Positions 6,988 to 26,292 of a stretch of 26,292 bases of DNA are shown piece by piece; position 1 is the first letter of the stretch, and each line of letters begins with the position of its first letter. The stretch comes from Planctomycetota bacterium. GTDB taxonomy: Bacteria; Planctomycetota; Phycisphaerae; SM23-33. Made by a program: the position numbers and the translations under genes. The notes under the pieces were generated by a model. The model did no database searches and was not told the origin of the DNA. It saw only the letters and a program-made list of their open reading frames with translations. Location of the stretch: NCBI GenBank assembly GCA_003644335.1, contig QNCB01000002.1, positions 1 to 26,292 on the forward strand, given 5' to 3'.

Positions 6988-9900
6988 ATGGGAACGCAGA
7001 GAGTTAATTACCGTCAAGGTTCCGACACCGGTGAGCGGGATGACGCTAACGCAATCAGTCCGATCATAGACGGTGAGCGTGTAAACGCAGCGACTTCTAA
7101 TCGCCCGGGTGAGAATATCCGGAGTCGTACAGAGTCTGCGAGATCCGACCTTGAAGACCAGATGTATCTGTCTGATACGGACATGCGTTGGATTATTCGG
7201 GGTGGGCATATCGCATCGCCCGGACCTCCTAGCCCAGATTATATGCTCAGTGAGAGTGTGGCGTCGGTTACAGAATGGTACCCCGCTAGTAGTGGGTCTG
7301 GGAATCCCCCTTGGCACACTGCAGATCCGGAGCGTGGGTACTTTACGGTAGCTCCAGACGCTCCTGATTTGGGGATTGTCTTAGAGGGGATACTGTCTAC
7401 GGCAGCGGATTTCCCCCACGTATTAACATTGTTTGCGGAGAATAACCTACCTCCCCGCACGTATGAATTCACGCTTACTTCTCGGTATCAGGCGGCAGAA
7501 GGCGGTGACATTATTCGTCTGCGTTGGCGATACGAGGATGATACTTTAACCCCCTTCCCATCGGGGTATTTGAGTGTGTACGCCACGGGAGATCCCATTC
7601 ACGTGATCAATGTGGATGTCGCAGGAGACGGCACCGTGACACTCGAAGATGTGCGAGCCGCCTTAGAAGGGGATCTTGATATTACAAATCTCGTGTCAAT
7701 TCCTATCTTGGGAACTGGGGACACGGGAACGGTTATTGACGTTGCCGATGTTGCTGCACCTCCTGCGGGTGAATTCATATTTGATAAGGAGTACCAGCGT
7801 GAGCTGCACCTCATCTCGAATGTCGCGTTACAGGCATTCTTTAATATCAATCCTCCTACCGCTCCTTACCCCTTCCCCAACCAGCTCAAGGACGGAGACA
7901 CGTTAGGGATTTACTACCCGTACATCAAGGATCCCGAAGCGTTCTTTGGTCCGCACGCGGACCCCACTAAGGTTGGGGGACGAAGACAAGCAACGCTTAC
8001 TAATAATGCACTTGCGGCGGTTGTCGAAACGGATTCTTCGCAACTTTTCAACAGCACATACGAGCCTGAAAAAGTCGCGCAGGGTATTCCGATCTGCAAG
8101 CGCATCGGAGACGACCTGATCTTCATTGACGGTACGATAGTGAAGGGAGAACTCGACCCGTTAGATCCGCTTTATCCGCCAGACGGTGTCCGCTTTGGCG
8201 AGCATGGATACACGCTGGAGCGCATCATGCTGGGCGCTTCCAGCATCATGGTTACCCTCACCGAAGATTGGTTCGGTGCAGTACCTCTTAGCTCAGGATC
8301 CCCCGCGTCAATCCAGGACGTGATTAACGCTATACTCAAAGACCTGGCAGGTACTGGAAGTCCTGAAGGGTCCGAGTTGATTGGAAGTCAGGGTAATGCG
8401 GGCGGAGGCGTGAGTGCACTGATTACTTCGTTAGTAGCGGGCAGTCTTTGGGGGCAATTGATTGCGTTGCAGGCAGGACAAAATGCGCGCGCAGCTCTTG
8501 GATGGGACGAAACTGTTACTGGGGAGTGGTTATTTCAAAATGTTCAAAATTTCCAACAGGAACAGTTTTTCGATTTTCCTCCGTTAGTACCTGTTTCCCC
8601 TTATTTACGAGGGAAGGCGGCTACGGCAACTGAGTCCTATGAAGTGACGTTGGGAACTTGGAGTTATTACCATAGTAGTCAGGGAGACTATTATACCGTA
8701 GGATTAGCTCCCAATGTTGTTCCGGCAGGTACATGGACTGTTGCACCGCAGAGTGTTCCGGGAACTCCTGGTAACGCTATGTTTTTTGGTAAGACGGACG
8801 ACGGATGGGTGTTCTATTTATTTGAAGGAGTTCTTGCTGGAGATATAATTTCGAATTTTGATGTGGCTTGTACCGCTAAATACGAGCTTACAAAAAGCGG
8901 GGGACTCTGGTATCACAATTTCAAAAGTGATCGTTATAATTTCGATACACCTAACGGAGGAGTACTGGGAGGGGATTGCTTTATAGGAGGTAAGCTCACG
9001 GTTAACGGCGGAACCTTTGGTTCTCCAAGTTATTTTAACGGGTCTGTCGATGTTAGCCCAGTAGGAGGAGCACATCTTACATTTGGGGGGCGGTCGTTTA
9101 ACGGGCCAATTCATGGACTGGAAGCCAAGTTTGAGTCAGTGTCCCCAACGATTAATCGGTTAGAATTTCATGCTGGTTTTGGGCTAGTTACGGGTCGCGG
9201 AATTCGAGTGGTTGCGGATAAGCCTTATCCGGATGCTGTGGGGCAGTTCATGCCCAGCACCGCACTTCCGGTGTCCTTCAACGAGAGTAAGTTTTACTAT
9301 GTGTGGGTAGACCCAGATGGTGAATTTTGGTTGGACGATATTGGACCTGTTTGGAATTCAACATACGGTGCGTATTTAGTGGATGCGTCACAAGTTATCG
9401 CTCCATATAGTGTTTATGAATACGCATTAGTGGATATCGTATGGAGTGTTGAGGGTAATACGCCTGGGACTATTCGGTTTGGTACGTGTCCGGATCTCGG
9501 AGGAGGGAGGCGTTACTGGCAGGAGGTTGATACGGGTACCCCGATGGAACATCAGGTAACAGAGCGGGAAACCGTGTGGATTAATGCGGGAAACACGGAT
9601 TTTTCGAACAGAGACTTAAAGGTAGCTGGAGGTGTGGGTGTACGCAATCCTGGAGTTCCCCTAGCAGTTACTAAGACCGCGATATTGAAGTTGCACGCTG
9701 AAGGACGACACACATCTTCGAGTCCTACGGATTTTATTAACGTCGTTGCTCAGGTTGTTAATTTGGCTAATGTCTATCAACCACCAATCCCTTCTCTTTA
9801 CCGCGGTGCGGGATACGCTGCAGTACACGTGAATGGTTATATGGAATACGGCACAGAACCCTCGGAAAGGGTTATGTCAGGAATTTTACAAGATGTTGTA

Positions 9901-15039: not shown

Positions 15040-16080
15040 ATGGCCAACACAGAAATATCCCAGACACGTGAGCAGGTTCTTAACGCTGCGGGTGAGCAAG
15101 TTTACCGCGTAATTTCGGTAGTGGCTGCCAAGGGGGATTTGCCACACCAGAGTATTTTTGTGTTGTCCATTAATGATGCCTCCGATCCTACGTCGGATAC
15201 ATTCCTACGCGTAGCGTCACCTTTCGATCTCACGAACCTCTACACTGATAGGCCAACGGCGATTGCGAATAGTGCAACGATTTTCCTTTCTCCCTACGTG
15301 AATAATGACTATTCGGATCTTGAAGTGGCGATGCAAGCGACGCAAGAGATCGATGGGCGTGTAAACACGTTGGTAACAACTTGGCAGACGTATTTCGGAG
15401 AGTTCTACACTCCCACATCAGAAACGCTTACGTTTCCCAATTTCGATCCAAGTTACGTGCAAGAACTCAAGGCGGCATACGCAGCAGCTAAAGAGGCGAG
15501 AGAGACCGCTGAGTCGGATCTTGAAGACAAAACGACCACCCTTACAGATGCCGAGGACGCGCTTGCTGATGCGGTTGGAATGGTTGAGCTCTTCGCATAC
15601 CTGGTGCAGGTTTGTGACAAGCTCATGCCTGCAACTACGGGCTACTGGGCTATTTTGAATGCTGAGATTACGAGTTACGTTGGCGGAACTAATAGTCTGT
15701 TTAACGCTATGAAGACTGCGTACGAGGTGTGGTCTACTATTCCATGGGTGCCCTCGTCCCCTCCAGCCCCGACAGAAGATTATTTTGATATGTATAACGC
15801 GCTAAACGCGTGGTACGGCACCATCAAAAATGATTGGGAAACTGTCGGTGTTCCGCAGGTAGCAAATGTCACTGCTACTCTCACGGACGCCTGTAATAAC
15901 GCATCCTCGGAGTATACCAGCGCCCTCAACGACCAAACCAATGCCGCGTCGGATGTCGCTGATGCTCAGGAAGCAAAAGATAAGGCGACCGCCACACTGG
16001 CGGCCGCCCAAGAAGCGGAAGACGCAGCTCTCGCCGCGGTAGTGGCGGTGTGCCCGGACTTCGATCCTGCGTCCGTCTAG
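15040..16080 (+). CDS. Coiled-coil protein with paralogous N-terminal domain
   Basis: 346 residues. Residues 1-120 are homologous to the previous gene product. A long Ala/Glu-rich helix (~138-185) then leads into a compact Trp/Tyr-rich middle (~185-270, containing the Pro-rich PWVPSSPPAPTEDYF). A second long Ala-rich helix (~273-335) returns, giving the layout of an antiparallel coiled-coil hairpin with a head. The protein ends CPDFDPASV. The ATG is 2 nt after the previous stop with no good ribosome-binding site, so it probably relies on re-initiation. The stop codon overlaps the convergent stop of the minus-strand operon (16077-16080). Likely a fibrous virion or spike component, but a structural role is only inferred. 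Confidence 0.6.
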   Translation: MANTEISQTREQVLNAAGEQVYRVISVVAAKGDLPHQSIFVLSINDASDPTSDTFLRVASPFDLTNLYTDRPTAIANSATIFLSPYVNNDYSDLEVAMQATQEIDGRVNTLVTTWQTYFGEFYTPTSETLTFPNFDPSYVQELKAAYAAAKEARETAESDLEDKTTTLTDAEDALADAVGMVELFAYLVQVCDKLMPATTGYWAILNAEITSYVGGTNSLFNAMKTAYEVWSTIPWVPSSPPAPTEDYFDMYNALNAWYGTIKNDWETVGVPQVANVTATLTDACNNASSEYTSALNDQTNAASDVADAQEAKDKATATLAAAQEAEDAALAAVVAVCPDFDPASV

Positions 16081-17444
16081 TAGTAGGAATTCTTTTTACA
16101 GAGCTCGTGGGACTGACGTTCTTGGTAGATGAAGTTCTGGAAGTTCCTGTAGATGTCCTTGAGTGTACGTATGTGCAATTTCCAAGGAAGGAGTCCGCCT
16201 CCACGGTTGTAGTTTCTCCAGCGGTACGTTGCCGCTAACTCCCCGTCGTACGTAGATTCGATGTAAAGTAGCGTGTAGCTCGTGCGTTTCCAGCCGTTAT
16301 GGTAGATAGGGCTGTGGTTACGCTGAGCAAGTTCTAGTAGGACGGCTTTTTCATTTGTAGACATACGTCGATAAGGAGGTTCTATCAGAGTAGTCTTGTA
16401 CTTTTCCAGAAATCGTCGAGCAGCTTGGAAGCCCCCGATTTCTCGCATGTAGTTCAGCGGTGAGGTTTTGGGGTTGATTGCGAAGATCAACCGGTTGCGG
16501 TGGACTTTCAACGTGCCGTAGCATTTTCGCCTCTCCACTCGTTTGTCAAGTTCCCCACTGTTGGCAAGCAAGAACCGGAGTTCTGGTCCGGTGAAGGGTA
16601 CGTGTACTCTTTTGACGATGTTCTTTGCGATCTCTAAAGTGCTCTCATCATAGTATCCGTTACACCAGCGAGGAGCGCTTCTGTATTCACCCCAACAGGG
16701 CTCCTTCATCGAGCATTGAGAACACACACTTTTCTGGAATTGAGCGTAGCGACTGCGTTCGGATGCGCCTTTTTGCCTCTTTTCCAAATTCGCTCCTACG
16801 AGAGTGAAGTCGTGTTCTTTGATGTTTCGGTGCGCCTCGGGCACGCCTACGTTAGATGTCAGGGTAGACCCGATAGCCCGAAACCTACCTATTTGAGTTT
16901 TCCAGTACTGTGTGCGCTCCCAATAGTCTTCGATATCGAGGTCGGGAGCGGGAGTCTGAGCGAGTGCGCCCAAGCTCATGAGCGGACACGCCCCCCCACC
17001 TTCCACTTTTACCGGGCAACTCGTACACCCATCGATATACTTTTCTGGAAAGCTGCACCGATTTCGGATGTCAATGCCATACACGTATTCAGGGACGCCG
17101 TTAGTCATGAGCGTTACAGGGAGACGATCCGAGTCGTTCAGCGCACTACGGCACACGGGATCTGCTTCGTTAGTCGCGATCAAAAAACGCGATTCATGAT
17201 CGGATGGCCCGTACCTGTACTTTGCGCAGTGGTTTATGAAAGGGAGGATCATGAAGGTGTCACCGAGGTACTTTTGGGTTTGGGGGTCCTCTGCGATTTC
17301 TCGGTGAAGTTCCCTATCAGTCAAATCAATATTGGCGGGAGTTCGTGCAAACAGCAAACAGCACGGCACCCCCCGAGAGAGGTACCGGCTGTTGCTGAGG
17401 CACGCCGCCGTGAACACGTATTCCACGTCGGTTTTATTTATCAT
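16077..17444 (-). CDS. Unknown protein with two four-Cys clusters, RT-associated
   Basis: 455 residues, last gene of the reverse-transcriptase operon. Its ATG lies 11 nt inside the end of the RT gene, with GGAAAG upstream. There are two cysteine clusters. One is C130-x9-C140-x2-C143-x9-C153 (containing GCTSCPVK). The other is C231-x2-C234-x5-C240-x10-C251 (CSQCSMKEPCW). The C-x2-C-x5-C spacing is the same as in WhiB-type iron-sulphur proteins, though zinc is equally possible. The C-terminal ~200 residues are basic and aromatic (RRKCYGTLKVHRNRLIFAIN, YRWRNYNRGGG), compatible with nucleic-acid binding. No known domain was recognised. The tight coupling argues that it works with the RT, as an effector, RNA/DNA-binding partner or processing factor; which of these cannot be told. 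Confidence 0.6.
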   Translation of the reverse strand: MINKTDVEYVFTAACLSNSRYLSRGVPCCLLFARTPANIDLTDRELHREIAEDPQTQKYLGDTFMILPFINHCAKYRYGPSDHESRFLIATNEADPVCRSALNDSDRLPVTLMTNGVPEYVYGIDIRNRCSFPEKYIDGCTSCPVKVEGGGACPLMSLGALAQTPAPDLDIEDYWERTQYWKTQIGRFRAIGSTLTSNVGVPEAHRNIKEHDFTLVGANLEKRQKGASERSRYAQFQKSVCSQCSMKEPCWGEYRSAPRWCNGYYDESTLEIAKNIVKRVHVPFTGPELRFLLANSGELDKRVERRKCYGTLKVHRNRLIFAINPKTSPLNYMREIGGFQAARRFLEKYKTTLIEPPYRRMSTNEKAVLLELAQRNHSPIYHNGWKRTSYTLLYIESTYDGELAATYRWRNYNRGGGLLPWKLHIRTLKDIYRNFQNFIYQERQSHELCKKNSYY

Positions 17445-18591
17445 GAGCTTTCCAATTGTCGATGGCCACGTCGAGTTCCGCTTTCAGTTTATCCCCCTTG
17501 TCCGAATGGACTTGGCGAATAAAGCTGACTTTACCTCGTAAATACTGCAAGAGCTCTTCAGGAGTCGTCATCCCAGCGCGTTCGTGCTGGGTTTCGATCC
17601 CGCTAACCATGCAGTTGTGAACAATAGCGCGGATACGTAAGTATTCGTTGTACTCGATGTTGGGTTTTTGGTTCATCACGATGCCGAGCATCTTCCTGCG
17701 GTAGAAGGCGCTCGCGATCCGAGTCTTAGCACGATTTATCTTGTAACCAGACGACTCGACAATCTGAGTTACGTCTTTGGCGATCTCCTTTTTCTCTGCT
17801 GCGGGAATGTCTTGTCCGCATGTGATGGTGAGGTCATCGGCGTACCTACTGTATCGCCAGTCCCACGGGGACTCTAGTCCTTCTCGCTTGTTCCGGTCGT
17901 TGAAATATTCGAGGATGCGCTGGTCGAATCGGTGGTTTGCTACGAGGTTGCAGATTGCTCCGGATGTAGGCGCACCTTGAGGAGTACCGTGAAAGAACTG
18001 TTGTCGCGGTGTTCCCCTGTATTTATCATCATCAATACCCTTGGAATTTTTAATGGGGACGGTCATGAGGTTCGCTAGAAGTCCGCTGACATGAAACGAG
18101 TACCCGATGGACTGGAAGTAGTGACGAATCCAAGCCCGTCGGGTACTAGGAAAGAAGTTCTTGAGGTCCATCTTGATGTAGACACCTTGCTTGGGGCACG
18201 TGTGCTGTTGGGGTGTCTGACCTTTGGGTGCAGTGTCGCAAATATCACAAGCGGGGATGTGCCGGGAAACTGCGTCTACAATGGAGCGACTGGGGCGGTA
18301 AGCAGTTACATGGTCTCCTAGTTGTTCCTGGAGGGGAAGCAGCAGCCGCGCGTGCAGGCGGTGTAAGAAGACTTTCATCAACGGAGAGGGTGCGTGAATG
18401 ATCCGTTTCTTCCCATTGCTTTTGGGAATGTGGAACACCTTGTATTGATCACTCTTATTTTGGAGGAGGTGCCACATGGTCTTGTTCCGGAATCCTATAA
18501 AGAACGCCAGGGTACAGTCGTCCAGGAGGAGGAATTCCGTATCCGGAACGGTGATTGTTTCGAACGTGCTCTCTGTGAATCCGTAGGTCAT
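17434..18591 (-). CDS. Retron-like reverse transcriptase
   Basis: 385 residues with a full set of bacterial RT blocks. KSNGKKRIIHAPSPLMKVF (57-75) is the fingers motif. YRPSRSIVDAV (98-108) follows. Motif A is IKMDLKNFFPS (Asp142). HGTPQGAPTSGAICNL (201-216) is the next block, and YSRYADD (247-253) holds Asp252 and Asp253. GYKINRAKTRI (282-292), MLGIVMNQKPNI (301-312) and LRGKVSFIRQVHSDKGDKL (351-369) follow. The last blocks resemble retron RTs, but the usual VTG is MLG and the NAxxH box is not intact. Residues 115-132 insert a C-x2-C...H-x-C segment that may bind zinc. There is no maturase, integrase or endonuclease domain, so a group II intron protein is unlikely. GGAGGAGG precedes an ATG overlapping the upstream TGA. 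The priming or template RNA is not visible beside the gene. Confidence 0.9.
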   Translation of the reverse strand: MTYGFTESTFETITVPDTEFLLLDDCTLAFFIGFRNKTMWHLLQNKSDQYKVFHIPKSNGKKRIIHAPSPLMKVFLHRLHARLLLPLQEQLGDHVTAYRPSRSIVDAVSRHIPACDICDTAPKGQTPQQHTCPKQGVYIKMDLKNFFPSTRRAWIRHYFQSIGYSFHVSGLLANLMTVPIKNSKGIDDDKYRGTPRQQFFHGTPQGAPTSGAICNLVANHRFDQRILEYFNDRNKREGLESPWDWRYSRYADDLTITCGQDIPAAEKKEIAKDVTQIVESSGYKINRAKTRIASAFYRRKMLGIVMNQKPNIEYNEYLRIRAIVHNCMVSGIETQHERAGMTTPEELLQYLRGKVSFIRQVHSDKGDKLKAELDVAIDNWKAHDK

Positions 18592-19232
18592 TCGATCTCG
18601 CCTCCTCCCTTTATCGAGGTCTCCACAACTTCGCGGAACTCCTCGTCTACGGGAAGGCGCGTGAGCTCGATGTTTCTACGACAGCGAGCTTGGCCGGGTG
18701 TGCATTTGTTGGCGTGATAGTCTGCGACGTGTTTACAGATCGCGCAGATGACTGGAATATCTTCCTTGGGAGTGTGTAGAAAAACTGTAGGCATCGGGAC
18801 ACTTAAGTTGTGGATGTCGGATACCGCGTGTGACAACGTATAAGCCAGCCGTACCTTGCGCGTGACAGGTTTCTTACTTTCAGGGTCGATTTCTTTATCA
18901 CGCGCAAGATACGTTGGAACTACGAGGAGCCATTCTCCTTCCTCAATTTCCTTGATTTCGGGAAGGTTCCCATCGGTGATACGCTGCCACTTCAGGGCGT
19001 CGTTGTCACGTTTCAGACCGATTTTACGCTGCGACTCGAAACGGATACGGTTGAGCGACTTCTTAATGACGTCGTCAACCTTCAAAATCAAGCTGTACCG
19101 AAACAAGCTTGTTGCTAGTTTTCGGTGAGTTTTGGGAATTAGGTAGAAACGGTCGAAAGGGAAGTACTCAAAAGTCTGCGTACCTCCGTCCAACCGCAAC
19201 TGCTTCAGTTTGACGCAGTATATTTCGGCCAT
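18588..19232 (-). CDS. Unknown RT-operon protein with C-terminal zinc-finger-like motif
   Basis: 214 residues, directly upstream of the RT gene, with the stop overlapping its start (ATGA). AAGGA lies 7 nt before the ATG at 19232. The N-terminal two thirds are mixed alpha/beta and basic (RKLATSLFRYSLILKVDDVI, ESQRKIGLKRDNDALKWQRI), with an acidic patch after it. Near the C-terminus C-x2-C-x-H-x4-H-x3-C-x6-C (starting at CAICKH) is a plausible zinc-binding site of the compact 'CxxC-H-H-C-C' type found in several phage proteins. No family was recognised. The neighbours are the VWA gene (17 nt upstream) and the RT. A nucleic-acid-binding accessory to the RT is a reasonable but untested guess. Confidence 0.55.
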   Translation of the reverse strand: MAEIYCVKLKQLRLDGGTQTFEYFPFDRFYLIPKTHRKLATSLFRYSLILKVDDVIKKSLNRIRFESQRKIGLKRDNDALKWQRITDGNLPEIKEIEEGEWLLVVPTYLARDKEIDPESKKPVTRKVRLAYTLSHAVSDIHNLSVPMPTVFLHTPKEDIPVICAICKHVADYHANKCTPGQARCRRNIELTRLPVDEEFREVVETSIKGGGEIE

Positions 19233-19249: not shown

Positions 19250-20872
<1,623 letters not shown>

Positions 20873-20878
<6 letters not shown>

Positions 20879-22690: not shown

Positions 22691-23063
22691 ACTCTGGAGT
22701 GATTTCCAGCCCCATGTCCGGCAGGCTGCGACGTCCTCTATCCGTTAGGATGTTCAGGTCTACCCAAGCGTCGGTCTCCTGCAGAGCCCGAGACAAGTCT
22801 GCGAGGTAGTCGTTGCAATTCAGCTTCTGCGCGAGCGGACGCAACGCGCGCTGAACGTAGATGCGTTCATAGACCGGCAGGATGAGGAGGAGCGTGATGA
22901 GTTCGTACATCACGTCCTCCACGGGGGGCGCCTTCTCGAACACGTCCTTGAGGGCGGTGAGGCATTGCATGCGACGTTTTATCAGCTGGGTTTCGGCTTT
23001 TACGGGATCGTCAGCGTAGTCCGCGTGACTGAGGACCCCCGCGAGTTCCAGTAGTCGTGACAT
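22677..23063 (-). CDS. Small partner protein of the MoxR ATPase
   Basis: 128 residues, all-helical by appearance (ELITLLLILPVYERIYVQRALRPLA in the centre, YLADLSRALQE after it), with a Pro-rich end. Its ATG lies one nucleotide after the MoxR stop (TGATATG), so it is co-translated. The codons are strongly G/C-ending like those of the ATPase and the VWA gene. No family was recognised. The likely role is an adaptor or regulatory subunit of the AAA+/VWA machine; this rests only on coupling and shared codon use. The 3' end overlaps the convergent gene by 14 nt. Confidence 0.6.
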   Translation of the reverse strand: MSRLLELAGVLSHADYADDPVKAETQLIKRRMQCLTALKDVFEKAPPVEDVMYELITLLLILPVYERIYVQRALRPLAQKLNCNDYLADLSRALQETDAWVDLNILTDRGRRSLPDMGLEITPEFKLP

Positions 23064-23064
23064 A

Positions 23065-24315
23065 TCAGCTCCCCCTCAAGGCGCGCTCGACTTCCGTCTG
23101 GGCGTCGTCCAAGCTCGTGTGGATTTTGATCCAGCTCTTGTGTGTCTGGACGTGCCGCATCAGATCGAAGAGGTAGTCCTTGGCGTTCGCCTCGTCGGCG
23201 TACTTCTTGAGCTGCGAAAGGACGCTGACGCGCATCTCATTCGGCAGATCTTCGAGGTACATGACGAAGTTCCCTGCCGTGACCTCGACGTCGGGTTGCA
23301 GGCTGAACATGTAGGTGAGGACGTTGACGTTGAGTTCGGTGATCTTTTCCTGCTCGGACTTGTTGAGGAGGAGCCGCACCGGCTTCCGCGCCATCTTCTT
23401 GTAGTTCAGCACCACGTCCTCCGCCCGGACGGCCGTGCGGTTGTCTTTGAGGTGCTCGACGAGCTGGGTACCCATGTGGATACCGACCGAGGCCGCGAAA
23501 CGGCAGAGTGCGAACTCGTTGTCCAGCGGCTTGTTCATCTTCTCGAGCATGTAAGCATCGAGAGAGATGGTTTGCACCGTGGCCGGACACATGTACTGCT
23601 TGCCCTCTCCCTGCGCCTTCTTGTCGTACAGGTTCTTGGGGTACTGTACGATGAAGTCCAGGACGCCTTCGTGGCACGGACGGCTTTTGCCGTCGTCGAA
23701 GCACTGCCGGTCGCTCATGTGGAACTGATCGCTCGAAGCGTGCGCGACCCAGTCCTTGAACGACTCTAGCGCGAAAAACCACTTCAGACGGCGGCGAAGT
23801 GCAGCGTTGTTTTCGATCTGCGTGACAGCGTACTGCGCCGTTGCCGGGTTCATCAACGCGATGACGATGGCCTCGTCCGGGAGGACGTAGTTGAACATTC
23901 TCCGGTCTTCGATGAGCGAGAAGAACATGGCGATGCTGTGCTGGAGACCCTGGTTGATCTCCTCGAACAGCATGATGGACTTCTCGCCTTTCTTGGGGAA
24001 CACCGACGGAACAAGAAGATCGAAGTAGCCTTCGGGCGAATCCTTGGTGCTCGGGATGCCGGTGCCCACGAGGCCGTAATGCGCGGTGCGGATGTCGTAG
24101 ATGCTCGCGCCCTCTTCGCGGGCGATCTCCGCGATGATCTGGGACTTTCCGATGCCCGCTTCTCCGACGATGCAGATGGCGCCGCGGTGTTGTCGGGTCT
24201 TCCAGGTGAGCAGAATCTGGTCCTTGATCTCCGCGATGGTGGCGCGCGGGATGTCGTACTTGTCCGCGTAATGAAGTTTCTTACCTGCTTCTTCTTCTTG
24301 CCTGCCTCTTGCCAT
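23065..24315 (-). CDS. MoxR-family AAA+ ATPase
   Basis: 416 residues. Walker A is GEAGIGKS (51-58) and Walker B is IMLFEEIN (114-121), the 'EIN' ending being typical of MoxR/RavA/NorQ ATPases. Sensor 1 Asn156 lies in IALMNPA, and an arginine-finger-like RRR (174-176) is in NNAALRRRLKWF. A helical lid and a ~150-residue C-terminal domain follow. MoxR ATPases form hexamers and act with VWA-domain partners as ATP-driven remodelling or metal-insertion chaperones (as in RavA-ViaA, NorQ-NorD, CbbQ-CbbO). Here the VWA protein encoded at 19250-20878 is the obvious partner. GAGAGG precedes the ATG. Third codon positions are almost all G or C after the first ~15 codons, unlike the adjacent terminase gene. 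Confidence 0.88.
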   Translation of the reverse strand: MARGRQEEEAGKKLHYADKYDIPRATIAEIKDQILLTWKTRQHRGAICIVGEAGIGKSQIIAEIAREEGASIYDIRTAHYGLVGTGIPSTKDSPEGYFDLLVPSVFPKKGEKSIMLFEEINQGLQHSIAMFFSLIEDRRMFNYVLPDEAIVIALMNPATAQYAVTQIENNAALRRRLKWFFALESFKDWVAHASSDQFHMSDRQCFDDGKSRPCHEGVLDFIVQYPKNLYDKKAQGEGKQYMCPATVQTISLDAYMLEKMNKPLDNEFALCRFAASVGIHMGTQLVEHLKDNRTAVRAEDVVLNYKKMARKPVRLLLNKSEQEKITELNVNVLTYMFSLQPDVEVTAGNFVMYLEDLPNEMRVSVLSQLKKYADEANAKDYLFDLMRHVQTHKSWIKIHTSLDDAQTEVERALRGS

Positions 24316-24335
24316 GCTGGTAACCTCTCTTTGTT

Positions 24336-25934
24336 ATGAGCAACTCCCGCTCTACATCATTATCCGTCGTCGCTGAAGCCTGGATTCAGCTTGACGGAAA
24401 GGATTTTCGGTTAACGGACTGGCCGATGCACCGCGCCTTCTACGACGGGCGTTATCGACGAACTTTGTTTAAAACTGCGCGCCAGGTCGCGAAGTCTACT
24501 ACGTTAGCGAATTTCTCCATCATCGAGTGCAGTCTTATACCACACTTCTCCACCATGTTTGTTAGCCCTTCCAAAGAGCAGACAACGCGATTTTCGAATA
24601 CTCGTATCGGAAAGACTATGCGGTACTCTCCGATCATTAACGAACAGTTCTTACGTACAGATCTTGCAGACCGTGTTTTCCATAAACAGTTTACGAATGG
24701 TAGCGAGATGCTCTTTACCTACGGTTGTGATGATGCTGAGCGTTTACGTGGCCCGTCTACTGACCGCAATATGTATGACGAGGTTCAGGATATTCTTTAC
24801 GACCCGGTCATCACAGTGGGTAATGAGACTATGGCCGAATCGGATTACGCTTTTGAGACTTACGCTGGAACTCCTAAGACGATGGAGAATACCATCCAAT
24901 ATCTCTGGGAGCTCAGTACCCGGAGTGAGTGGGTAATGAAGTGCGACGGGTGTGGTAGTCACGTTTTTGTGGATAGTGAAAAGTGCCTAGGTAAGTATGG
25001 ACCAGTTTGTCCGAAGTGTAAGCACTACTTGAATCCGTTTACAGGTCAGTGGATCGACATGGTTCCCAGTAAGAAATTGCAGGGATTTCACATCAGTCAA
25101 CCGATGATGCCCCGTAACGTTCCCTTAGCTATGCGTTCCGCTGGTAGGTCGAGTGCTGAGGTTAAACAGGCAGAGTTGCGCTGGGAGCGTATCCTGCAGA
25201 AGTTTGAAGAGACGCCCCTATCTACTTTCCGTAATGAGGTTCTGGGCGTCTCAGATGAGATTGGTAGTCGGCTCTTGTCGCAGGAGGAGCTCGAGTCGCT
25301 TTGTACGGGGGATCCTCTGCAACAGTTCCCAGATCGTAAAGCCCTTCAAGGAATTACGCAGATTGTCGCCGGAGCTGACTGGTCGGGGGGCGGCACGACA
25401 GGCGTCTCACGTACTGTTCTTTGGATCTGGGGTTGGCGTCCGGTTGACCAGAAACTCATAACCTTGTTTTACAAGGTATACCCTGGTACTAACCCGGTGA
25501 CTGCCGTAGAAGAAATCGCGCTGGTCTGTAAGCAGTATCAAGTGTCGATGTTCTGTGGAGATGCTGGAGAGGGCGCGCTGGCTAACGACCTCATGCGTAC
25601 TCATCTCGGGCATCACCGGGTAATCCAAGTGCAGTATGGGATGCAGGCTAAGGCACTTAAGTTCAATCAGGTAGACCGTTATACGGGTGATCGTACCACC
25701 CTGATCGATAATTACTTCATGATGCTGAAGCAAAAGAAAATAGAGTTTGGTCCCCTGGCGGAGATGCGTGTTGCTATCAACGACATCCTTAACGAGTACG
25801 AAGACGTTACACACACGGACCGAAAGGTGTGGCGCCACTCCCCGCAGAAGCCCGATGACTGTTTGCATGCGGGCCTCTTTGGGTGGTTGGCGTGGAAGAT
25901 AATCAATAAAGACTTCAAATTCTGGCAAGAGTAG
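24336..25934 (+). CDS. Terminase large subunit (packaging ATPase/nuclease)
   Basis: 532 residues. It cuts concatemeric DNA and drives it into the prohead. The ATPase domain has ARQVAKST (48-55, a Walker A variant of the phage type) and NMYDEVQDI (Walker B Asp148, Glu149). A four-Cys insertion follows (C203, C206, C225, C228), a likely zinc ribbon, as seen in some terminases. The RNase H-like nuclease domain begins at GADWSGGG (Asp348), with GDAGEG (Asp409) and PDDCLHAGLFGW (Asp507/Asp508) completing the acidic triad. No small subunit gene is recognisable beside it. The start is 20 nt from the divergent ATPase gene with no clear ribosome-binding site; no better start was found in frame. It is followed directly by the structured RNA region. 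Confidence 0.92.
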   Translation: MSNSRSTSLSVVAEAWIQLDGKDFRLTDWPMHRAFYDGRYRRTLFKTARQVAKSTTLANFSIIECSLIPHFSTMFVSPSKEQTTRFSNTRIGKTMRYSPIINEQFLRTDLADRVFHKQFTNGSEMLFTYGCDDAERLRGPSTDRNMYDEVQDILYDPVITVGNETMAESDYAFETYAGTPKTMENTIQYLWELSTRSEWVMKCDGCGSHVFVDSEKCLGKYGPVCPKCKHYLNPFTGQWIDMVPSKKLQGFHISQPMMPRNVPLAMRSAGRSSAEVKQAELRWERILQKFEETPLSTFRNEVLGVSDEIGSRLLSQEELESLCTGDPLQQFPDRKALQGITQIVAGADWSGGGTTGVSRTVLWIWGWRPVDQKLITLFYKVYPGTNPVTAVEEIALVCKQYQVSMFCGDAGEGALANDLMRTHLGHHRVIQVQYGMQAKALKFNQVDRYTGDRTTLIDNYFMMLKQKKIEFGPLAEMRVAINDILNEYEDVTHTDRKVWRHSPQKPDDCLHAGLFGWLAWKIINKDFKFWQE

Positions 25935-26292
25935 TGCTGCTATCCTTTCGCTGGGCGCTTACCAGCAGAGAGTGCCTCGTGTATGTAACACGAAACTCTC
26001 CGGCGTGTAGCACGCCGTAGGAGTGGGTTCTCCTTCCAGCACTGAAAAAGGTACTGCTGTGAGTCCCTGTAGCCCGGCCCTAGCCGAGGTTGATGTACAA
26101 GGTCCGATGAGTACATCATCCTCAGAGAGGGCTCGGGCTACCAGTGGATCTCAGGTATTGCTAGCGTAATGGAGTCACTTCCTCCGCTGCATGTCTCGAG
26201 CCGCGTGACAACGTAGTTGTAACGCGCCGAGCATGTCGGCGGAGGTATGTGAAGCCATTTGCCAAGCCAGCCGCAGTCGTTACCTGTTGGGA
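25935..26292 (+). ncRNA. Large structured noncoding RNA candidate, 3' end beyond window
   Basis: No ORF of useful length lies in this 358-nt stretch, yet it is full of long paired segments. AGTGCTG (25933-25939) can close on CAGCACT (26037-26043). GAGAGT/ACTCTC plus TCGTGT/ACACGA form a hairpin at 25968-26000. CGGCGTG/CACGCCG forms one at 26001-26017, and AGGAG/CTCCT one at 26019-26034. A ~25-bp arm at 26069-26141 pairs GTAGCCCG/CGGGCTAC, GCCCT/AGGGC, GAGG/CCTC and TGATGTAC/GTACATCA, with a 12-nt loop. GTGAGTCC (26059-26066) can enclose it with GGAGTCAC (26171-26178). A ~27-bp arm at 26181-26245 includes CCTCCGC/GCGGAGG, CATG/CATG, CTCG/CGAG, CGCGT/ACGCG and ACAAC/GTTGT. G-T pairs (e.g. 26160-26167, 26188-26238) favour the plus strand. 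No tRNA, tmRNA or intron core was recognised. Confidence 0.72.

Follow-up and report, generated by a model that had tools for sequence, protein, structure and literature searches.

What kind of element fills the gene-free stretch that lies between a phage terminase gene and the end of its contig? The window analysed here, 26,292 bases in all, is an entire virus record, and because this record is classed as linear it is probably a fragment. Its last 358 bases run from the end of the terminase gene (25934) to the contig end, and 25935-26292 holds no ORF of at least 60 aa in the ORF list. The plus strand of this stretch folded at -174.5 kcal/mol (z -8.2) and the minus strand at -169.8 kcal/mol (z -9.35); neither energy was reached by any of 100 shuffles. 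An earlier note on this DNA had described 358 gene-free nucleotides with at least six hairpins. The ORF scan and the fold agree with that description, which missed that the stretch is truncated by the contig end and that the RNA is best read from the minus strand. The two long arms with internal loops that it reported are present in the fold, and its view of a large multi-branch RNA rather than a terminator is upheld.

Rfam searches gave zero matches for the whole window at gathering scores, and chance matches only for 25800-26292 at a permissive threshold and for seven relatives, which places the stretch in no Rfam family. A tRNA and tmRNA search of 25935-26292 found none. Comparison of the array with phage records by similarity returned six records with chance matches of 20-30 bases only, and an exact 29-base pattern of the first module (module A, Table 1) matched the contig of locus L002 alone.

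Layout of the contig-end modules

Two junction-closing helices had been proposed. The helix of 25933-25939 with 26037-26043 closes a complete module in the minus-strand fold (-52.3 kcal/mol, reached by none of 200 shuffles). The other proposed helix, 26059-26066 with 26171-26178, has a G-G mismatch and does not appear in the minimum-energy structure, in which 26061-26066 pair within one arm, with 26146-26152. The arms are separated by a repeated 9-mer (GGTACTGCT / GGTATTGCT), with copies at 26050-26058 and 26154-26162.

On the minus strand, the module order is a1, a G, the P4 hairpin, the P3 hairpin with its three-base loop, one or more long imperfect arms, AG and a2. Judged from sequence and predicted folding, the order is that found in retron ncRNAs (msr-msd). 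Module A folds on this strand into a closing helix and four hairpins, and the same grammar is seen in relatives. Module B is represented by its 3' part, its a1, P4 and most of P3 lying past the contig end. The phage locus L002, which is ~99% identical to the window in this stretch, runs on past the window's end and supplies the sequence beyond 26292. Its continuation contains P3, P4, a1 (GGUACUG) and a promoter-like GGTAAAA, giving a complete module B with three a2 copies and a fold z of -11.35. According to passages of PMC6868368, retron a1/a2 helices span about 8-30 bases and end at the priming G; at 7 bp, the a1 of the window is one below this range, and its junction context is TGGA.

Table 1. 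Predicted features of the window and modules near related bacterial RTs; loci named with L are separate records with their own numbering.
Feature	Position	Strand	Basis or remark
Large terminase subunit	24336..25934	+	PHROG 675, 8.5e-46; Pfam GpA_ATPase
Module A, complete retron-type ncRNA unit	25933..26043	-	5' end 26043, 3' end 25933; fold z -6.1
a1 strand (P1a), module A	26037..26043	-	pairs with 25933-25939
G right after a1 helix, candidate priming (branching) guanosine	26036	-	G of relatives; definition in a passage of PMC6868368
P4 hairpin (msr-like), module A	26019..26034	-	sequence and fold
P3 hairpin (msr-like), module A	26001..26017	-	7 bp, loop CUA closed by G-C; triloop family in relatives
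Arm(s) of module A (msd-like), two hairpins	25950..26000	-	fold
a2 strand (P1b), module A	25933..25939	-	overlaps terminase stop codon (25932-25934)
Module B, 3' part: two arms and two a2 copies	26050..26292	-	near-identical L002
a2 copy 1, module B	26050..26056	-	comparison with L002
a2 copy 2, module B	26154..26160	-	one base different from L002
Retron-type RT, 385 aa, proposed trans-acting partner	17434..18591	-	PADLOC, PDB profile, Foldseek
214-aa protein, four invariant Cys	18588..19232	-	overlaps RT start, syntenic with RT
455-aa Cys-rich protein	16077..17444	-	overlaps RT end, syntenic with RT in many relatives
L174 module	1919-2082	RT strand	RT frame from 2110, 27 nt after
L167 module	9362-9580	RT strand	RT frame from 9608, 27 nt after
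L166 and L168 modules	near 8570-8810	RT strand	21-bp a1/a2
L172 module	9127-9329	RT strand	descriptor
L238 module	9353-9512	RT strand	descriptor

We regard it as probable that the contig-end stretch is the 3' part of a trans-acting, multi-template tandem array of retron-type ncRNAs on the minus strand. The earlier guess of an RT substrate fits such an array, and the suggestion of an unrelated new RNA class gives way to the grammar of retron ncRNAs.

Modules, cassettes and strand in related phages

A terminase search of IMG/VR gave 26 loci. An alignment search contributed its best 80 of 114 loci, and a 38%-identical locus (L027) was added to these for a set of 81. The gap after the terminase measured 100-2,200 nt in 68 of the 81 loci, yielding 56 non-redundant gaps (36.5 kb), among which two that are really polymerase-coding contig ends (L020 and L054) were kept. 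On the far side of the gap lies a convergent gene of ~1,000 aa, identified as a family A DNA polymerase in L002 (Pfam 3.9e-72) and by position elsewhere. A scan of named genomes found no terminase relatives.

Earlier descriptors with fixed GCT and CC flanks gave many chance matches and were set aside. The descriptor used here set two conditions, a G-C-closed P3 hairpin with a three-base loop and a stem of 6 bp or more, and a helix of 8 pairs or more around it, and left the flanks free. It returned 132 matches, 71 of which had a G right after a1 and a G right before a2 and were spread over 38 of the 56 gaps. Dinucleotide shuffles (n=60) had a mean of 1.0 and a maximum of 4 such G-flanked matches, and the reverse complement had 9. 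The third loop position of P3 was A in 66/71 matches; once shared helices and loops without this A were removed, 65 distinct modules in 35 gaps were left. Their junction bases, which the search did not fix, were TGGA (10), TAGC (10), CGGA (4), TGGC (4), TAGT (4), TAGA (3), CAGC (3), CAGT (3), TGGT (3) and others. The phage a1/a2 helices span 7-17 bp, the distance from P3 to a2 is 50-165 nt in 58 of the 65 modules, and the arms (n=60) have a mean fold z of -2.4 against mononucleotide shuffles. Each of eight a1/a2 positions shows all four Watson-Crick pair types, in modules that were selected on pairing. Retron priming contexts reported in passages of PMC6868368 are TAGC, CAGA, CAGC, GAGC and ACGC, and the Ec86 msr hairpin bound by RT region Y is described there as an 8-bp stem with a UUU loop. 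The phage modules have the a1/a2 helix with a G in a TAGC-like context, short msr-like hairpins among which the P3 triloop hairpin is the predicted RT-bound one, and a long mismatched hairpin between msr and a2. Taken as sequence predictions, retron-type arrays are found across a large uncultivated phage lineage.

Covariation in homologues, which the earlier note had named as a check, was seen for the four arrays that could be aligned (L058, L026, L057 and L061). The proposed pairs were formed in 99.6% of cells, and two-sided pair changes numbered 8/70 against 3.2 in shuffles, a count of 8 being reached by one shuffle in 500. When the partner was slid along, at most one two-sided change was obtained. 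At L010, L011 and L013, pairing is possible between the terminase 3' end (last codons and stop) and sequence that follows it at a distance of a few dozen to ~130 nt, over 15 bp in L010 and as judged by eye in L011 and L013, and the outermost array helix overlaps the terminase coding end.

Several arrays have a single a1-P4-P3 followed by 3-9 arm-plus-a2 cassettes. Exact a2 copies number three in L002, four in L003, three in L012, three in L015 and nine (plus one variant) in L014, and L066 has five copies of an a2 unrelated to the others; the longest arrays of this kind are those of L014 (11605-12760) and L066 (3088-4250). Compared with L002, the window is missing a 129-nt unit, which consists of 117 nt plus a single copy of a 12-nt repeat. 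We read this as a cassette lost or gained between a2 repeats, and an assembly cause is unlikely. The arms of the window and of L003 could not be aligned by BLAST, at 87% identity of the terminases. Within the fetched loci, no arm matched another part of the same locus at E 1e-4, the one exception being a 39-base self match in L095.

The best reading of these data is that the RNA lies on the minus strand and is transcribed in the direction of the terminase gene, with the downstream DNA polymerase gene behind it; a transcript continuing from the terminase gene, which is on the opposite strand, is not supported. The motif GGTA[AT]AA occurs in the 56 gaps 31 times on the RNA strand compared with three times on the other strand, against an expectation of 3.9 based on the remainder of the loci; terminase 3' ends account for eight of the 31 copies. 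By eye, the motif ends 4-6 nt before a1 in nine arrays (L002, L003, L010-L015 and L055). In two genomes with a relocated array (G015 and G021), both flanking genes point in the RNA direction. The closing pair of P3 in the four alignable arrays is G.U in 14/16 cells and G-C in 2/16; on the opposite strand the G.U would be an A.C mismatch, so that for the msr-like part the minus strand is the more likely RNA. Weak pairs of the P3 hairpin likewise favour the RNA strand (18 G-U to 3 A-C), and those of a1/a2 are without strand bias (11 G-U, 13 A-C).

The arms behave differently. As the complement, 41 of 60 were more stable than as RNA (energy p 0.00014; z p 0.16), and the weak pairs of 59 arms were 102 A-C to 66 G-U, compared with 107 to 104 in shuffled arms. 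Selection acting on the cDNA strand could account for the bias; we give this reading no weight because the arms of six multi-arm arrays were unbiased (15 A-C to 17 G-U). Alifold of the four arrays gave -155.3 for the complement versus -152.3 for the RNA strand, with 25 versus 30 covarying pairs. The second a2 copy of the window (GGTATTG) pairs with the a1 of L002 through a wobble on the plus strand only.

The reverse transcriptase and its co-occurrence with the array

The reverse TRANSCRIPTASE (RT) of the window lies ~7 kb from the array start (25933), and in relatives the RT is 6-9 kb upstream of the terminase end. Its best PADLOC model is retron RT_XIII (3e-59), and NCBIfam models for retron St85 (1e-43), Ec67 (1e-35) and group II (1e-18) all scored under their curated cut-offs. 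A 15-sequence RT profile searched against PDB chains ranked the retron Ec67/Ec86 RTs best (7e-26 to 1e-23), and 12 sequences, nearly all of them retron RTs (Ec67, Ec86, Kva2, Ec78, Ec83 and others), preceded a group II RT. The 12 best Foldseek chains for its AlphaFold (AF2) model (pLDDT 82.5) were retron entries. By sequence profile and predicted structure, the phage RT belongs to the retron family. The Y and DD of YxDD are invariant in 15 homologues, and other motifs diverge, with DAxxH in place of NAxxH, the usual retron RT motif, and LLG in place of VTG. A group II intron was considered and rejected, as there was no Rfam match and the RT is nearer to retrons (1e-43 versus 1e-18). Against an annotated phage collection, the RT matched 12 records, all at 29% identity or less.

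RT and ncRNA do not form one contiguous cassette: the RT gene of the window is overlapped by genes on both sides. Because this one-cassette feature of canonical retrons does not hold here, we call the elements retron-type arrays. The four Cys of the 214-aa neighbour are invariant across 25 aligned sequences, and its AF2 model (pLDDT 80.6) had no PDB match by Foldseek at E 0.001. No effector gene could be recognised, the 214-aa and 455-aa proteins being conserved neighbours of the RT without a family match. A vWA-domain (DUF2201) protein (19250-20878, minus strand) and an AAA ATPase (23065-24315, minus strand) keep their synteny with RT and terminase across the family; tblastn finds neither near the terminase in the RT-less L086, L095 and L098, and both in the RT-less L027.

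The RT was found in 47 of the 75 records searched, a 57-residue match in L027 being left out. Among the 28 negative records, 24 have under 5 kb of sequence upstream of the terminase and therefore cannot show it, and four (L027, L086, L095 and L098) cover its place and lack it. At least one module lies in the terminase gap of 31/47 RT-bearing records. The other 16 comprise eight without a gap of 100 nt and eight with one, and three of the latter (L019, L044 and L068) had matches in other descriptor searches. We then scanned ten genomes, as possibly incomplete contigs, throughout for modules: seven RT-bearing ones without gap modules and three RT-less ones. In five of the seven (G015, G021, G022, G032 and G034), modules with helices of 10-16 bp were present elsewhere in non-coding DNA, in tandem in G015, G022 and G034; the other two (G036 and G030) had 8-9 bp matches only, anywhere. 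In the three RT-less genomes (G063, G072 and G026), no module of 10 bp was found, and the 8-9 bp matches were at chance level. Array presence thus tends to track the RT genome-wide, and this co-occurrence may partly reflect shared ancestry, since the RT-less genomes are among the most distant. In the relocated array of G021 (L115, 730-1010), one module has a 14-15 bp a1/a2 helix and a second has a 7-bp helix that, by eye, continues past a one-base bulge.

Related RTs also occur in bacteria. An RT-alignment scan of named genomes gave 120 loci, of which the best 80 were kept; ~50 of these are, by title, from Planctomycetes or Myxococcota (25-32% identity). A similar module descriptor was run upstream of 42 of the 80 RTs and then across all 80 loci, where it gave 59 matches compared with 23 in one mononucleotide shuffle, so that these matches are mostly chance. 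Six of the 80 loci have a module upstream of the RT on the RT strand (Table 1), lying about 0.5-1.4 kb before the RT match in L166, L168, L172 and L238. The P3 hairpin of L167, 8 bp with a UUU loop, has the form described for Ec86 in passages of PMC6868368. By sequence, these six are likely cis retrons, and the grammar of their ncRNAs is thus the one found in the phage modules. L164, a contig binned in an Archaeoglobales MAG, a putative host, carries an RT of the phage lineage at 45% identity; it measures 78,677 b, as does the contig of L045.

We infer that the arrays would produce msDNA. Transcription would start from the GGTA[AT]AA site and the RNA would fold; the phage RT would bind the msr-like P3 hairpin in trans, prime from the G following a1 and copy the arm adjoining the paired a2. 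In a multi-cassette RNA, a1 could pair with any a2 copy, so that one RNA could yield alternative msDNAs, and each array would give several different RNA-DNA hybrids (msDNAs). Change is much more rapid in the arms than in the scaffold, which points, tentatively, to phage-host or phage-phage conflict as the most likely use, with msDNAs as decoys or sensors. A fuller version, to which we give less than even credence, is that in a whole lineage of large phages one a1-msr serves many interchangeable msd-a2 cassettes in trans, and that the fast-changing ssDNA library made by a single phage RT during infection acts as counter-defence decoys or against rival phages.

Alternative explanations and known systems

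The array could instead be a structural RNA, conserved among the phages, that acts in RNA form (a decoy, sponge, regulator or packaging RNA), the RT being an unrelated core gene. The very strong RNA-level folding and covariation, and the separate loci of RT and array, would suit such an RNA; we nevertheless find it unlikely, as the junction bases match the retron priming context, the same module precedes the RT in some of the related bacterial retrons, and the array tends to occur where the RT does. The packaging version, which the earlier note had raised by analogy with phi29 pRNA, is disfavoured because in a subclade the array sits away from the terminase gene and is thus not tied to it.

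It is very improbable that the stretch is a DNA-level element, in which hairpin cassettes between short direct repeats move as folded single strands in the manner of integron attC sites or REP elements. The 129-nt unit that differs between L002 and the window, the folding of both strands and the rapid arm turnover are what such an element would show, but the wobble pairs and conserved G.U-closed triloops of P3 favour an RNA strand, a promoter-like motif stands at the array start, and the 10 window proteins run against Pfam include no integrase or transposase. Least credible is a convergent-gene terminator or dsRNA barrier between the terminase and polymerase operons, which the position between convergent genes might suggest: the stretch is far too elaborate, terminator-like sites in 23000-26292 are not in excess (3 versus 2.9 expected), at least 10 relatives have gaps of 2-41 nt here, and two other genomes have the array flanked by genes that run in one direction.

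In bacteria, retrons are known as defence cassettes that combine a single RT with a single adjacent ncRNA. If the retron-type array reading is true, viruses would make an msDNA repertoire of their own, reversing this usual picture. The phage arrays would then directly test the role of msDNA sequence in phage-host conflict and offer a natural multi-template retron, with several DNAs from one RNA. Phage retron arrays are absent from the available passages of PMC12350094, PMC7824862, PMC8867640 and PMC8934634, and listings of CC-licensed PMC papers contained no recognised report of such arrays, trans ncRNAs or phage retrons.

Among known systems, GOLLD and ROOL, both Rfam families, resemble the array as large phage-associated structured RNAs. 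They were rejected as candidates, with no Rfam match in the window (gathering), in 25800-26292 (permissive) or in seven relatives. The packaging RNA of phi29, which also has an Rfam family, is similar in its packaging-gene neighbourhood; it too was rejected, with no Rfam match and the array lying elsewhere than the terminase in relatives. Canonical retrons (Ec86 and Ec67, and the six likely cis retrons above) share with the phage modules an a1/a2 helix ending at a G, an msr hairpin with a three-base loop, a long msd hairpin and the retron RT fold. They differ in having a single ncRNA that shares one cassette with the adjacent RT, whereas the phage arrays consist of one to many ncRNAs, ~7 kb from the RT in the window, and have no recognisable effector. 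Links of retrons to phages are described in passages of PMC6868368, in which Ec73 lies in the phage-like element phiR73 and Ec86 and Ec67 adjoin a prophage packaging gene.

Retron-Nex1 (Ne160) of Nannocystis exedens is also similar in that msr-msd repeats lie away from an RT: passages of PMC6868368 describe several duplicated msr-msd repeats with no RT within 1 kb, an old puzzle on which the phage arrays would bear. N. exedens DSM 71 (L232) has an RT of the same broad clade at 27% identity, which may be the Ne160 RT, and the descriptor found no convincing module within 10 kb of it. Retron-Nex1 differs in belonging to a bacterial chromosome, whereas the arrays described here belong to phages of one lineage, in which the RT is syntenic, arrays stand in tandem at places that recur between genomes, and modules combine one msr with many msd.
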